Of a stretch of DNA of 64,000 nucleotides, positions 33,109 through 36,886 are shown in pieces (the first letter of the stretch is position 1; every line of letters starts with the position of its first letter). The notes under the pieces were generated by a model. That model was not told the origin of the DNA. It saw nothing but the letters and a program-made list of their open reading frames with translations, and ran no database searches. The stretch covers positions 434,001 to 498,000 of the forward strand of contig NZ_CP046452.1 of assembly GCF_009734385.1 (NCBI RefSeq), written 5' to 3'. The DNA comes from Corynebacterium kalinowskii. GTDB taxonomy: Bacteria; Actinomycetota; Actinomycetes; Mycobacteriales; Mycobacteriaceae. Both the position numbers and the translations under genes were made by a program.

Positions 33109-33534
33109 ATGGCCATGACTATCAAAAATGTCCCTTACTACGCTTTCGCCGGCAACGCCCGCGAAGCCATGGAGTTCTACCAGTCCATCTTCGGCGGTGA
33201 GCTGAACGTGATGACCTTCGGTCAGATGGGCGATCCGTCGCTGCCTGCCGACATGGCTGAGCTGCTTGCCCACGGTCACCTGACCGGTGGCACCATCGAG
33301 CTCGCCTGCTCCGACTATGTCGAGGGATTCATGGGGCAGGACCCATATGAGATCGGCAACCACCTTTCCCTGTCCCTCTGGGGCGACGACGTTGAAGAGG
33401 GCCGCTCCTACTTTGAGAAGCTGTCTGAAGGCGGCCAGGTGAACATGCCATTTGAGAAGCAAATGTGGGGTGACACTTACGGCCACGTCACTGACAAGTT
33501 CGGAATGGCATGGCCCATCAATGTCTCTGCCTAA
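33109..33534 (+). CDS. VOC-fold protein (PhnB/glyoxalase-like)
   Basis: 141 residues from the ATG at 33109. The PhnB-type opening [22 protein letters not shown] and late [20 protein letters not shown] (each shown in part) mark this as the VOC subfamily annotated as 3-demethylubiquinone-9 methyltransferase-like. The actual activity is unknown; no ubiquinone pathway is expected in corynebacteria. The frame opens at a TTG (33091); ATG 33115 is another option. It overlaps the SRPBCC gene by 14 bp, so the two are translated together. Confidence 0.82.
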
Positions 33535-33985
33535 GCCAACCGCAACGCTTCACGACGGCCACCGCTGGGAATACCGTCGGAACCTGCCAGGCACCGCAGC
33601 TGAGTTGTGGCAGTGGGTGACTGAATCGTCCTGCACTTCGCAATGGTTTGGTCCTTTCGAGCGAGTATCCGATGAATCGGTGGCGATCACCATGACGGCC
33701 GAAGAAGCCGGTCCGCCGATGACCGCTACCATTGTTCAGTGCGAAGCACCTCGCATTTTGACCCTTGACACGGGTATGTGGGTGCTGTCTTTGGAAGTGG
33801 GGGATGGCTCCATCTCGCTGTTCCATGAGGTCGCCTCGGCAGAGGAAGCCGCCTCGATTGGTCCCGGTTGGGAGTTCTACATGGATCGGCTTGAAGCTGC
33901 GGTTCTCGGCAGGTCTGTGACTGACATTGACTTTGAGCAGGGCTACTTTCCGGAGATGAGCGAGTACTTTACGTCTCAGTATTAG
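33521..33985 (+). CDS. SRPBCC / AHSA1-like protein
   Basis: 154 residues. Typical START-like beginning: [21 protein letters not shown], shown here only as its core [15 protein letters not shown] (about 18-32), then SQWFGPFE and a C-terminal helix [16 protein letters not shown]1-like proteins bind hydrophobic ligands; few have a defined function. The frame runs upstream through the VOC gene, but the ATG at 33521 gives the normal family start. Overlap with the VOC gene indicates a shared role, unidentified. Confidence 0.8.
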
Positions 33986-34066
33986 GGCTGGTCAGGGGCA
34001 GATTTTGTCCTATGAAGAAATTCACGTATATTAAACGTCTGTCGCAAGGGAAACCTTGTCAGGCTC

Positions 34067-34139
<73 letters not shown>

Positions 34140-34140
34140 C

Positions 34141-34165
34141 AAGGACCGCTTCGGCGGCCCTTTTT
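34141..34165 (+). terminator. Terminator after tRNA-Glu
   Basis: AAGGACCGC-TTCG-GCGGCCCTT (one mismatch) followed by a T-run; the UUCG tetraloop makes it stable. Confidence 0.7.
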
Positions 34166-34169
34166 AATC

Positions 34170-34188
34170 AAATACACCAGGTGTATTT
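34170..34188. promoter_or_regulatory. Perfect palindrome abutting tRNA-Asp
   Basis: AAATACACC-A-GGTGTATTT (9-1-9) ends exactly one base before the first tRNA-Asp gene. It is absent before the second copy. It could be an operator or a precursor-processing stem. Confidence 0.4.
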
Positions 34189-34262
34189 GGCCCTGTGGCG
34201 CAGTTGGTTAGCGCGCCGCCCTGTCACGGCGGAGGTCGCGGGTTCAAGTCCCGTCAGGGTCG
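34189..34262 (+). tRNA. tRNA-Asp (anticodon GTC), copy 1
   Basis: 74 nt: acceptor GGCCCTG with CAGGGTC, anticodon loop CTGTCAC, T-arm GCGGGTTCAAGTCCCGT, discriminator G. The mature sequence is identical to the copy at 34464. Confidence 0.96.
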
Positions 34263-34278
34263 CAATTCTGATTCAACG

Positions 34279-34313
34279 AAGACCGAGTTCACTTTTGTGG
34301 CTCGGTCTTTTTC
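34279..34313 (+). terminator. Terminator after the first tRNA-Asp
   Basis: AAGACCGAG (34279-34287) pairs with CTCGGTCTT (34301-34309), then TTTCG. Confidence 0.75.
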
Positions 34314-34463
34314 GTGTTTGTAGTGTGATCTGGATATCTCGCAGGCCGCAGAAACTACAGGGATGAAAGCTGGTTCATTGGGCCCGTGACGTGCAGATTT
34401 GTTTCCTATTGACCTATCTGTGTAAAGTCTTACCTCGTGCGAAGGAGTTACTTCTTCACGCAC

Positions 34464-34537
34464 GGCCCTGTGGCGCAGTTGGTTAGCGCGCCGCCCTGTC
34501 ACGGCGGAGGTCGCGGGTTCAAGTCCCGTCAGGGTCG
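34464..34537 (+). tRNA. tRNA-Asp (anticodon GTC), copy 2
   Basis: Identical over 74 nt to the copy at 34189-34262; flanks differ. It probably shares a transcript with the tRNA-Phe 24 bp downstream. Confidence 0.96.
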
Positions 34538-34561
34538 CTAGACTGTTTAGCGACAGTCTTT

Positions 34562-34634
34562 GGCCAGATAGCTCAGTCGGTAGAGCACACGCCTGAAAAG
34601 TGTGGGGTCGCCAGTTCGATCCTGGCTCTGGCCA
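34562..34634 (+). tRNA. tRNA-Phe (anticodon GAA)
   Basis: 73 nt: acceptor GGCCAGA with TCTGGCC, D-arm GCTCAGTCGGTAGAGC, anticodon loop CTGAAAA, T-arm CCAGTTCGATCCTGG, discriminator A. Confidence 0.97.
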
Positions 34635-34641
34635 CAACATG

Positions 34642-34676
34642 CAAGCCCCTTACCTAGCGGTAAGGGGCTTGTTTTG
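34642..34676 (+). terminator. Terminator after tRNA-Phe
   Basis: CAAGCCCCTTACC (34642-34654) pairs with GGTAAGGGGCTTG (34659-34671), TAGC loop, then TTTTG. It ends the tRNA transcript just before the inverted-repeat array. Confidence 0.85.
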
Positions 34677-34716
34677 TCTATCGCCCCTCGTACAGAATCT
34701 GGGGGTCGTAGTGCGG

Positions 34717-34942
34717 TGGGTAAACCTTGCCGGACCAAATAGGTTTACCCAGGAATCGGTGGTGTGTGGTGCCGGATTGGTGGGTAAATCTGATCCGGGT
34801 TTGCAGGTTTACACAGTACATGGAGCGAATTTGCCGGAGCGGTGGGTAAACCTTGGCGGACAGAACAGGTTTACCCAGGAATCGGCCACGTGAAGCGTCA
34901 AAACAGTGGGTAAACCTACTAGCCCAGACCAAGGTTTACCCA
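34717..34942. repeat. Array of four inverted repeats at about 63-bp intervals
   Basis: Each unit is TGGGTAAACCT, a 13- or 14-nt centre, then AGGTTTACCCA. Left arms start at 34717, 34781, 34843 and 34907; right arms at 34741, 34805, 34867 and 34932. Units 1, 3 and 4 have perfect 11-bp arms; unit 2 differs at two positions. Units 1 and 3 are near-identical over 45 bp, including AGGAATCGG after the right arm. Centres are 64, 62 and about 64 bp apart, close to six helical turns. Centres of the units vary in sequence but keep their length. Reading frames on both strands through the array repeat the same peptide but have no start context, so I do not call a gene. Confidence 0.85.
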
Positions 34943-35034
34943 TGACGAATCCGCGAGTAAACGGATCGGTATGCCGTCCCCTGCCTCCAAAACCAACCCT
35001 TGTGTCCTGGCTCACTTTCCGGCATGCTGGGGTT

Positions 35035-35301
35035 ATGACTGAAATTCGCCACGAAAAGGATCGCCAACGCTACGTACTGGATGTTGACGGTGAGATCGCC
35101 GGCTACGCCGAGTACTCCCTCGCCGGGGAGACGCGGGACTTTGACCACACGGTGATCGAAGACCGCTTCCAGGGTAAGGGGCTGTCCAAGCCGCTTATCA
35201 AGGGTGCCTTGGATGACACAAAGGCGCAGGGGATTGCCTATACGGCCACCTGCAGTGCCGTAGAGCACTTCATCGCAAAGAACCCTGAATACGCGCTGTA
35301 A
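35035..35301 (+). CDS. Small GNAT-fold N-acetyltransferase (YjdJ/Gcn5-related type)
   Basis: 88 residues, the short single-domain GNAT type. HEKDRQRYVLDVDGEIAGYAEY opens it (shown in part as YVLDVDGEIAGYAEY), and the acetyl-CoA site is represented by DRFQGKGLSKPLI (about 43-55). The family is widespread and without an assigned substrate; human and bacterial members bind acetyl-CoA. The ATG at 35035 gives the normal family length; the open frame extends back into the repeat array. A bidirectional terminator follows. Confidence 0.8.
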   Translation: MTEIRHEKDRQRYVLDVDGEIAGYAEYSLAGETRDFDHTVIEDRFQGKGLSKPLIKGALDDTKAQGIAYTATCSAVEHFIAKNPEYAL

Positions 35302-35309
35302 TAACAGAA

Positions 35310-35331
35310 AAACCCCGCGCAGGCGGGGTTT
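35310..35331. terminator. Bidirectional terminator between the GNAT gene and cysE
   Basis: AAACCCCGC (35310-35318), GCAG loop, GCGGGGTTT (35323-35331). It sits 4 bp from the cysE stop and serves both convergent genes. Confidence 0.8.
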
Positions 35332-35334
35332 GAA

Positions 35335-35931
35335 CTAGATGCTGTAGTTGGCGGGGAATCCGCCAGTGACGTAGGCATCTGGGTCGACGAGTTTGATGCA
35401 CTCATCCGGGTTGCGTGGTCGGTTCTTGGCAGGGATACCAACGGCAATATGGCCCGCTGGGACATCCTTGGTGACGACGGCGTTCGCGCCGATCGCGCTG
35501 CCCTTACCAATGGTGATAGGCCCGAGCACTTTGGCGCCAGCGCCGACAGTAACGCCGTCGCAAAGCGTGGGGTGCCGCTTCGTTTGGGTCAGCACCTGGC
35601 CACCCAGGGTGACCCCGTGGTACAGCATGACACCTTCGCCGATTTCGGCGGTCTCGCCGATGACGATGCCCATGCCGTGGTCGATGAAGAAGCGACGCCC
35701 GATGGTGGCGCCAGGGTGGATCTCGATGCCCGTAAAGAAGCGGGTGGCCTGGGCCAGAATACGGGCAGGCCCTCGGAGACCACGGACCCACATCGCATGT
35801 GCGATGCGGTGAGACCAAATGGCGTGAAGACCTGAGTAGACGATGGCGTTTTCCACGTCGCCACGAGCGGCGGGATCGTGCTCGCGAGCATTCTGGAGAT
35901 CCTCACGGATCATGCGTACTAGCTGGTACAT
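35335..35931 (-). CDS. cysE: Serine O-acetyltransferase CysE
   Basis: 198 residues, the short actinobacterial form. N-terminal helices ([17 protein letters not shown]) are followed by left-handed beta-helix hexapeptide repeats, with [18 protein letters not shown] and [12 protein letters not shown] bearing the catalytic His residues. It makes O-acetylserine from serine and acetyl-CoA. The ATG at 35931 was chosen; 35913 is possible. It lies 19 bp downstream of cysK, its pathway partner and physical partner in the cysteine synthase complex. The C-terminus ends in Ile (PANYSI), the residue that inserts into the CysK active site in other species. Confidence 0.95.
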
Positions 35932-35950
35932 ACTCGCCGATAATAGCAAC

Positions 35951-36886
35951 TTAGTCGCGGATGTCCTCAAAGAGAATGGTCGAAACGTAGCGCTCGCCAA
36001 AGTCAGGCGCGAGAGTCACGATGGTCTTCCCCTTGAATTCAGGGCGTGCCGCCAATTCGAGGGCAGCCTTGACGTTGGCACCAGCGGAGATGCCGCCCAG
36101 GATGCCTTCCTGGGTGCCCATGGCGCGGGAGGTTGCTACGGCGTCTTCATTGGTGACGGTAAGAACTTCGTCCAGGATCTTTCGGTCGAGCACGTCCGGG
36201 ATGAAGTTCGCGCCGAGGCCCTGGATCTTGTGTGGGCCAGCCTTGCCGGTGGTCAGCAGTGGGGAATCGGCAGGCTCGACTCCGACAACGGTGATGTCTG
36301 GGTTGTGGCTCTTCAATACGCTGCCGACACCGGTTACAGTGCCGCCGGTGCCGATGCCCGCCACAAAAGCATCCACCTTGCCATCGGTGTCTTCCCAAAT
36401 CTCCACCGCCGTGGTCTCCTGGTGGATCTTCGGGTTCGCTGGGTTGGCGAACTGGCGGGCCAAGATGGAGCCCGGGCGAGAAGCCACGACTTCATTTGCC
36501 TTATCGACGGCCCCCTGCATGCCAGCGGCGCCTGGGGTCAACACAATCTCAGCACCATAGGCGCGGAGCAGGACTCGACGTTCCGCCGACATTGTCTCCG
36601 GCATGGTGAGCACGACGCGGTATCCGCGAGCTGCGCCGACGAGAGCCAAGGCGATGCCGGTATTGCCCGAAGTCGCTTCAACGATGGTGCCGCCTGGCTT
36701 GAGCTCGCCGGACGCTTCGGCGGCGTCGACAATGGCGCGACCGATGCGGTCCTTGACGCTGTTGGCTGGGTTGAAGAACTCGAGCTTGACCAAAACTTCT
36801 GCCTCGAGACCCTCGACCAGGCGATTGAGTCGCACTAACGGGGTGTGGCCAATGGTTTCGGTGACGTTGCGGTAGATGTTCGACAT
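35951..36886 (-). CDS. cysK: Cysteine synthase (O-acetylserine sulfhydrylase) CysK
   Basis: 311 residues. PLP lysine K45 in [11 protein letters not shown], the substrate loop [12 protein letters not shown], and the PLP phosphate site [12 protein letters not shown]. It makes cysteine from O-acetylserine and sulfide. The ATG at 36886 has AGAGGAC upstream. It forms an operon with cysE. The promoter is readable and carries an McbR-type operator, so repression by sulfur sufficiency is expected as in C. glutamicum. Confidence 0.96.

Follow-up and report, generated by a model that had tools for sequence, protein, structure and literature searches.

A dispersed REP-like palindromic element in Corynebacterium kalinowskii and a candidate family of AbiEi-Vsr partner genes

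Introduction

The genome of Corynebacterium kalinowskii (RefSeq assembly GCF_009734385.1) is a single contig of 2,510,218 bp (NZ_CP046452.1). We analysed a stretch of 64,000 nucleotides from it (genome positions 434001-498000, hereafter the window), in which a gap beside a tRNA cluster holds an array of four inverted repeats. An earlier note, made from the letters alone, read these repeats as phased on one face of the helix, and suggested sites for a bound protein, a small dispersed repeat family or a scar of integration at a tRNA. What, then, is this array, and what keeps it? With moderate confidence, we favour the view that it represents two copies of a dispersed element resembling the repetitive extragenic palindromes (REPs), with a family of genes for predicted AbiEi-Vsr proteins as partners.

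Results

The array contains two four-arm units

Four dyads of the form TGGGTAAACCT-N13/14-AGGTTTACCCA span window positions 34717-34942, with successive starts 64, 62 and 64 bp apart and centres of 13, 13, 13 and 14 nt (Table 1). The 11-bp arms are perfect in three of them, and perfect dyads are matched three times in the array and not once in 100 shuffles. Dyad 2 is the imperfect one, with a single change per arm (TGGGTAAATCT / AGGTTTACACA). The repeats, their spacings and their centre lengths are thus as the earlier note described them. The dyads form two 99-bp units, each with four 11-bp half-sites in the order arm, 13 nt, arm, 29 nt, arm, 13 nt, arm. Growth of the array by duplication had also been proposed and is partly borne out; the similarity of dyads 1 and 3 speaks for it (43 of 47 positions identical in a count by eye that includes the flanks, 34713-34759 versus 34839-34885), but the two units fit best in opposite orientations, which speaks against it.

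Fourteen pairs at eleven loci

A dyad scan of stretches fetched from the genome reveals 28 dyads at 11 intergenic loci (Table 1), making 14 pairs. The offset within a pair is exactly 64 bp in 13 pairs and 63 bp in one, and the reversed dyad pattern has no match in the genome. The array therefore belongs to a small dispersed repeat family, as the note had allowed. A profile of the 99-bp pair, R1, recovers all 14 pairs with 53-80 bits each in the better reading; its next match outside the 11 loci has 13.7 bits, so that no solitary or decaying copies are seen. Lone arms are not enriched (82 matches with at most one mismatch, 53 of them within dyads by our count, versus 32 for a reversed control).

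Three loci hold two pairs each; the distance that joins the pairs is 62 bp both in the window and at 2180897, and 50 bp at 637422. The two units are oppositely oriented in the window and at 637 kb, and directly oriented at 2180 kb. Phasing near six helical turns, which had been claimed for the whole array, is kept within pairs and not always between them. The tRNA genes are not the general setting of the element: two of the 11 are located within or next to a tRNA cluster. An integration scar is further disfavoured by the lack of a consistent target duplication (a single exact 5-bp match, at one of the 11 loci, for lengths of 3-10 bp at 0-29 bp from the ends). Genes flanking the loci are mostly housekeeping genes, among the 10 proteins scanned, and the one 0.81-Mb gap among the loci is not unusual (about 0.2 by a rough estimate).

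Conserved arms and saturated centres

The arms of the family carry 16 changes in 616 positions. All of them lie on a single side of a dyad, none is compensatory, and five of them are G-U when the plus strand is read. Within the half-site the changes are confined to positions 1-3 and 9-11, chiefly 3 and 9, and positions 4-8 (GTAAA) are invariant. The centres have a mean identity of 0.29, and the two centres of a unit are at 0.31 and 0.29, compared with 0.27 for shuffled sequence. With 13 of the 14 pairs oriented (the pair with the 63-bp offset was excluded from this alignment), the 29-bp spacer is polar, with the consensus YCAATCCGAC-N10-ACCAAATGR. The left dyad has 14 changes and the right dyad two, a pattern that is partly circular, the orientation having been chosen by fit.

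Recent copying alone cannot explain near-perfect arms beside saturated centres in 14 units; therefore each copy would have to be under selection or corrected. We read the arms as probable protein half-sites on double-stranded DNA, in agreement with the earlier suggestion that conserved arms and fixed spacing point to a bound protein.

Predicted AbiEi-Vsr genes and their flanking repeats

The double array at 637 kb lies 28 bp beyond the stop codon of a gene (genome positions 636507-637394, the 637k gene), for whose product a fusion of an AbiEi-like domain with an EDxHD/Vsr-type nuclease is predicted, the AbiEi-like fold being C-terminal and the winged helix absent. Three such AbiEi-Vsr genes were found in this genome, the other two at 136831 and 2257826. 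We compared the upstream with the downstream flanks of 39 AbiEi-Vsr genes from 17 Corynebacterium genomes, which are part of about 82 matches (mostly the top of the list, with some matches being fragments of one gene). The null distribution was taken from 312 mismatched pairs (99th percentile 29, maximum 32).

A gene-specific repeat is present on both sides of 21 of the 39 genes, in 11 of the 17 genomes, and all 21 score at least 41. Inverted repeats score above 29 at 19 genes and direct repeats also at 19, the union being the 21. Among open reading frames from stretches of genomes G044 and G134, 14 of 378 exceed 29; three of these are AbiEi-Vsr genes, leaving 11 of 375. The two fractions differ (Fisher test, 5e-17), with uncurated control frames and with related loci among the 39. 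One control frame in G134 (L264:9540-10581) has a strong direct flank repeat with a score of 180.

Most positive genes have their own palindromic dyad, with an arm identity of 0.92 versus 0.70 for the rest over the 21, the dyad structure having been fitted to the very alignments from which arm identity was measured. In these flanking repeats 19 stem pairs differ on two sides and 34 on one side with pairing kept, a count made without a control. Relative to the stop codon, the start of the downstream copy ranges from 26 bp before to 75 bp after in 20 of the 21 genes; the exception is 136831, where it lies inside the 3' end of the reading frame. Four-arm scans fixed near a 13-bp gap and a 64-bp offset missed the flanking repeats of other genes; these came to light once the scan was widened, words were counted and flanks were compared.

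Similarity of the proteins and of their repeats correlates in a Mantel test (r 0.54, 0 of 5000 permutations), but the Spearman coefficient is -0.04. Repeats are related (scores 28-149) in the five protein pairs that exceed 70% identity, and unrelated (11-19) in six pairs at 60-65%. Co-evolution of protein and repeat is not established, since the rank test disagrees and the five closest pairs may be orthologous loci. No AbiEi-Vsr homologs were found on plasmids or phages and none was confirmed in IMG/VR; PF11459 had no match anywhere, control genomes included, and is hence uninformative.

Upstream of an AbiEi-Vsr homolog in G018 (L145, 870-1063), GGCAAGCACC occurs four times at an exact spacing of 61 bp, in direct and not inverted orientation. 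In another genus (G600, L194:2936-3025) two dyads, TNCTTATGC-N12-GCATAAGNA, stand at a 60-bp offset between an AbiEi-like and a HipB-like gene; this four-arm site was not used as an AbiEi example, its owner being ambiguous with the HipB-like gene on the other side.

Cognate repeats away from their genes

The gene-flanking repeats recur away from the gene in all three genomes looked at (G134, G044 and the present one). In 400 kb of G134 the arm CAGTGCCANNAGACGCAA, which flanks the gene at 350560, has 23 matches, four of them at the gene, versus none for the reversed control. Off the gene there are seven dyads, whose arm-to-arm distances are 74, 74, 76, 63, 74, 75 and 75 bp, the 63-bp distance being one helical turn short of the others. 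A second arm in G134, AAAAAGTTCCCG, has eight matches versus one in the control and is found again at 248 kb. The signal in 400 kb of G044 is noisy (15 matches versus 6), with the gene's dyad found once more at an identical 35-bp offset.

In the present genome, both ends of the 136831 gene carry GATTTGGTnAAGCAGACT dyads offset by 40 bp, and degenerate copies with the same offset lie at 1454122 and 1573324 (30 matches versus 16, in 285 kb). The 2257826 gene has a 3' dyad pair with the arm CCCGGACGAATTT at a 74-bp offset, and upstream two exact arms at a distance of 74 bp. Elsewhere CCCGGACGAATTT shows no clear enrichment (76 versus 53). As two of the three AbiEi-Vsr genes have other arms, TGGGTAAACCT would by elimination go with the 637k gene.

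Taken together, the flank comparison and these recurrences show that genes of the predicted AbiEi-Vsr type often have gene-specific repeats on both sides, mostly dyads, and that such dyads recur elsewhere in the genome.

Distribution in other genomes

With up to three mismatches allowed, the dyad is found in 2 of 242 Corynebacterium genomes, the present one and G159 (one dyad, three mismatches). Among 397 genomes of the order, which partly overlap the 242, it is found only in the present genome. Under stricter filters R1 gives 11 other genomes of the 242 at E <= 0.1, none of them above 16 bits. The array has no blastn match to plasmids, and the dyad patterns have none in IMG/VR. A broad contig collection, which may omit the present genome, contains three single dyads of the exact pattern in unrelated taxa, where we estimate that about one is expected by chance. 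In open-licence papers, which are weak evidence of absence, we found neither such repeats in Corynebacterium or actinobacteria, nor a DUF559 endonuclease with terminal inverted repeats, nor a mobile combination of AbiEi and Vsr; the papers in which the arm strings appear are unrelated, judged by the titles listed.

The nearest relative by CysE (95% identity), G074, is without dyads at the places syntenic to 468, 353, 417, 637, 1566 and 2181 kb; its interval at the 13.7-kb locus is longer and was seen in part. G074 bears other palindromic families, some of them in gaps that hold the window's family here. No AbiEi-Vsr gene was found in the examined stretches of G074, nor in the remaining examined stretches of the present genome (labelled G000), and the palindromes of G074 are therefore without a known owner.

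One G074 family (L110, L118, L121, L122, L126) has the arm AGCGTACGGATGGGA and an 18-nt centre, with seven dyads in 400 kb, two of which fall in gaps occupied here by the window's family. Another (L119, L125, L126, L127) consists of paired dyads, ACCCGGGAA..TTCCCGGGT, with offsets of 74 bp in three pairs, 75 bp in one and 64 bp in one; a spacer is shared by four of these pairs, and the offsets match those of other families described here. Repeats of CCCCGACATTAC with GCCCGAACTTCGGG, in part as a 42-bp tandem, were seen as well (L108, L109, L111, L114, L117). Words around GCTTATCGACG rank among the commonest 14-mers in the fetched stretches of both G000 and G074, perhaps through codon usage.

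Surroundings of the array

The array lies 3' of the tRNA-Phe gene and its hairpin and 5' of a small open reading frame, which we read as acetyltransferase-like. A tRNA search of the window places no tRNA over the array; its position in a gene-less gap past the likely tRNA-Phe terminator is as first described. Two tRNA-Asp(gtc) genes (window 34189-34263 and 34464-34538) have the same sequence by eye and are 275 bp apart; G074 likewise has two, with a longer spacer that contains a long inverted repeat.

Table 1. Coordinates of the array, its parts and the related loci (window positions, except for the last row)
Feature	Position	Strand	Description
Unit A	34717..34815	-	99-bp four-arm element, best fit on minus strand; R1 profile 75.9 bits, minus strand
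Unit B	34843..34942	+	Second four-arm element, 100 bp (second dyad centre 14 nt); R1 53.5 bits over part of the unit
Dyad 1	34717..34751	no strand	Both arms perfect, centre 13 nt
Dyad 2	34781..34815	no strand	One change in each arm, centre 13 nt
Dyad 3	34843..34877	no strand	Both arms perfect, centre 13 nt
Dyad 4	34907..34942	no strand	Both arms perfect, centre 14 nt
Unit A spacer	34752..34780	-	29 bp, polar; minus-strand reading CCAATCCGGC...ACCGATTCC
Unit B spacer	34878..34906	+	29 bp; poor match to the polar consensus
Hairpin 3' of tRNA-Phe	34642..34671	+	Inverted repeat, likely terminator; upstream boundary of the array
Dyad loci (genome positions)	13715, 207298, 353488, 417413, 468717 (window), 637422, 1451596, 1566001, 1623536, 2141331, 2180897		

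Discussion

The closest parallels are the REPs with their REP-associated tyrosine transposases (RAYTs), and the operators of AbiEi-family proteins; the papers on these systems are cited here from excerpts. RAYTs are said to lie always between two inverted REPs, to evolve fast and to be species-specific (PMC2817692), and REPINs are described as doublets with a less conserved spacer (PMC3116915). The family described here likewise consists of short, species-specific palindromes that lie between genes as doublets around a less conserved spacer, and the partner gene would, like a RAYT gene, be bounded by its own repeats and encode a DNA-cleaving fold (PMC2817692, PMC3116915, PMC3733652). In its dispersed, lineage-specific intergenic doublets (14 pairs at 11 loci) it shares a trait of REP/RAYT systems. 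In contrast to a RAYT, the candidate partner is predicted to be AbiEi-like plus EDxHD/Vsr-like and not a Y1 transposase: the Y1 HUH transposase model PF01797, the one transposase family searched, has no match in G000, G074 or G044, and matched in 5 of 14 control genomes. A GTAG/CGTC tag at the stem foot was not seen by eye in the 99-bp consensus or the conserved flank columns. The 14 copies stand against hundreds for REPs, and about half of the tested genes have flanking repeats, in either orientation, where the excerpt has RAYTs always between two inverted REPs (PMC2817692).

The sites themselves resemble an AbiEi operator. Rv2827c, of the AbiEi family, is described as binding at its own promoter an operator of four inverted-repeat half-sites with a 13-bp gap and a pair offset of 63 bp (PMC7319586); the half-site number and gap are the same here, with an offset of 64 bp. 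The AbiE operator, made of inverted 23-bp repeats bound by monomers, is alike in geometry. The candidate partner shares the AbiEi-like fold, at its C-terminus, but lacks the winged helix, and the 14 scattered copies are gene-less, unlike the Rv2827c operator. The AbiEii toxin PF08843 was not found in G000 and is present in 10 of 43 genomes searched; AbiEi_4 (PF13338) has six matches in G000, none above the cut-off (best E 0.016). Homing endonucleases of the EDxHD/Vsr type (for example I-Bth0305I), as excerpted (PMC12350094), differ in that the nuclease here is predicted to be fused to an AbiEi-like domain and accompanied by dispersed palindromes. Because no Y1 transposase, no GTAG/CGTC tag and no AbiEii toxin was found, we file the system under neither REP/RAYT nor the AbiE type IV toxin-antitoxins; it would work like the former, with sites that resemble those of the latter.

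We tentatively propose, with a little less than even confidence, a second, independently evolved system of the REP/RAYT kind, in which each AbiEi-Vsr protein keeps and spreads private palindromes spaced in helical turns (63/64 or 74/75 bp), with several families per Corynebacterium genome. Binding, cutting and mobility are all parts that we infer. The 637k protein would be the cognate binder of TGGGTAAACCT, several monomers occupying the half-sites; owing to the fixed offset, two dyads could be bridged from one face of the helix. The gene with its terminal copies may be, or may recently have been, a mobile or self-copying unit, selfish or self-regulating. Gene-less copies such as the window array would rely on the gene in trans, in line with what has been proposed for REPs and their RAYTs; they would disperse and then be held in register with the binder. 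We speculate that arms could be corrected by cutting and repair from another copy.

The 637k gene itself has no upstream copy, its copies being downstream only (flank score 20). The 2257826 gene has a flank score of 24 and counts as negative among the 39; its arm count is 6 against a null of 3-4 and its four-arm scan gives 4 against a null of 10, both of which we took as support. The REP/RAYT-like picture itself leaves the near-perfect arms beside saturated centres unaccounted for. If the partnership with the nuclease genes fails, what remains is one more member of the dispersed-palindrome kind.

Unlikely, yet deserving weight, is the alternative that the host keeps the dyads as binding sites for a global regulator, or for a protein that organises the chromosome, with no relation to the AbiEi/Vsr genes, and that the adjacency at 637 kb is coincidental. 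For parS-, Noc- or matS-like sites, which are bound by a segregation or nucleoid protein, the comparison covered the positions of the loci. The strong copy-by-copy constraint on arms and spacing, the saturated centres and the absence of decayed copies would all fit such sites, and we estimate the chance that one of three AbiEi-Vsr genes abuts one of 11 arrays at 1-2%, which is low and not nil. However, at least five of the 11 loci sit between convergent genes by our reading, and not in promoters; the arm is missing from the other 241 Corynebacterium genomes save for one single dyad; and the flank test and the dispersed cognates tie repeats to the AbiEi-Vsr gene family.

We regard as improbable an old family of miniature inverted-repeat transposable elements (MITEs) derived from an ordinary insertion sequence and by now recognisable mainly at the ends. 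The element is dispersed, intergenic and lineage-specific, other palindromic families of G074 occupy some equivalent gaps, and a length of about 100 bp, inverted ends and the absence of an internal gene also recall MITEs as excerpted (PMC3116915). Against this, neutral decay cannot preserve 97% of arm positions beside saturated centres, decayed or single copies are not seen, no consistent target duplication is seen near the ends at the 11 loci, and the copies have only arms and spacer edges in common.

An element acting as an RNA or single-stranded DNA hairpin (a terminator, a transcript stabiliser or a hairpin substrate) is very improbable. As RNA, the array does fold better than shuffled sequence (z -3.76), and the two-sided and still-pairing one-sided stem changes in the repeats of other genes, whose structure was fitted to the same alignments, point the same way. 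The one-sided and never compensatory arm changes, five of the 16 being G-U on the plus strand, argue against it, as does the separate hairpin that already precedes the array after tRNA-Phe. Rfam gives four tRNAs above gathering score in window 33500-36500 and nothing else, leaving the array without an Rfam family. Chance local duplication, which the earlier note had tied to arms found only here and absent from relatives, can be dismissed: the likeness of dyads 1 and 3 and the absence of the arm from relatives would suit it, but the reversed pattern has no match in this genome and the arms occur genome-wide, as 14 pairs that share an offset over 11 loci, which already contradicts it.

The favoured reading, an REP-like element with AbiEi-Vsr partner genes, bears on proteins whose relatives are named in databases merely as 'endonuclease domain-containing', DUF559, very-short-patch-repair endonuclease or AbiEi antitoxin. 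The partnership makes it testable why the arms stay fixed while the centres drift. If each AbiEi-Vsr protein has a private palindrome, its DNA target could be read straight from the genome. If this is true, an owner could be assigned to many intergenic repeats that are so far unexplained, and partnerships of the REP kind would have evolved with two unrelated enzymes as starting points.
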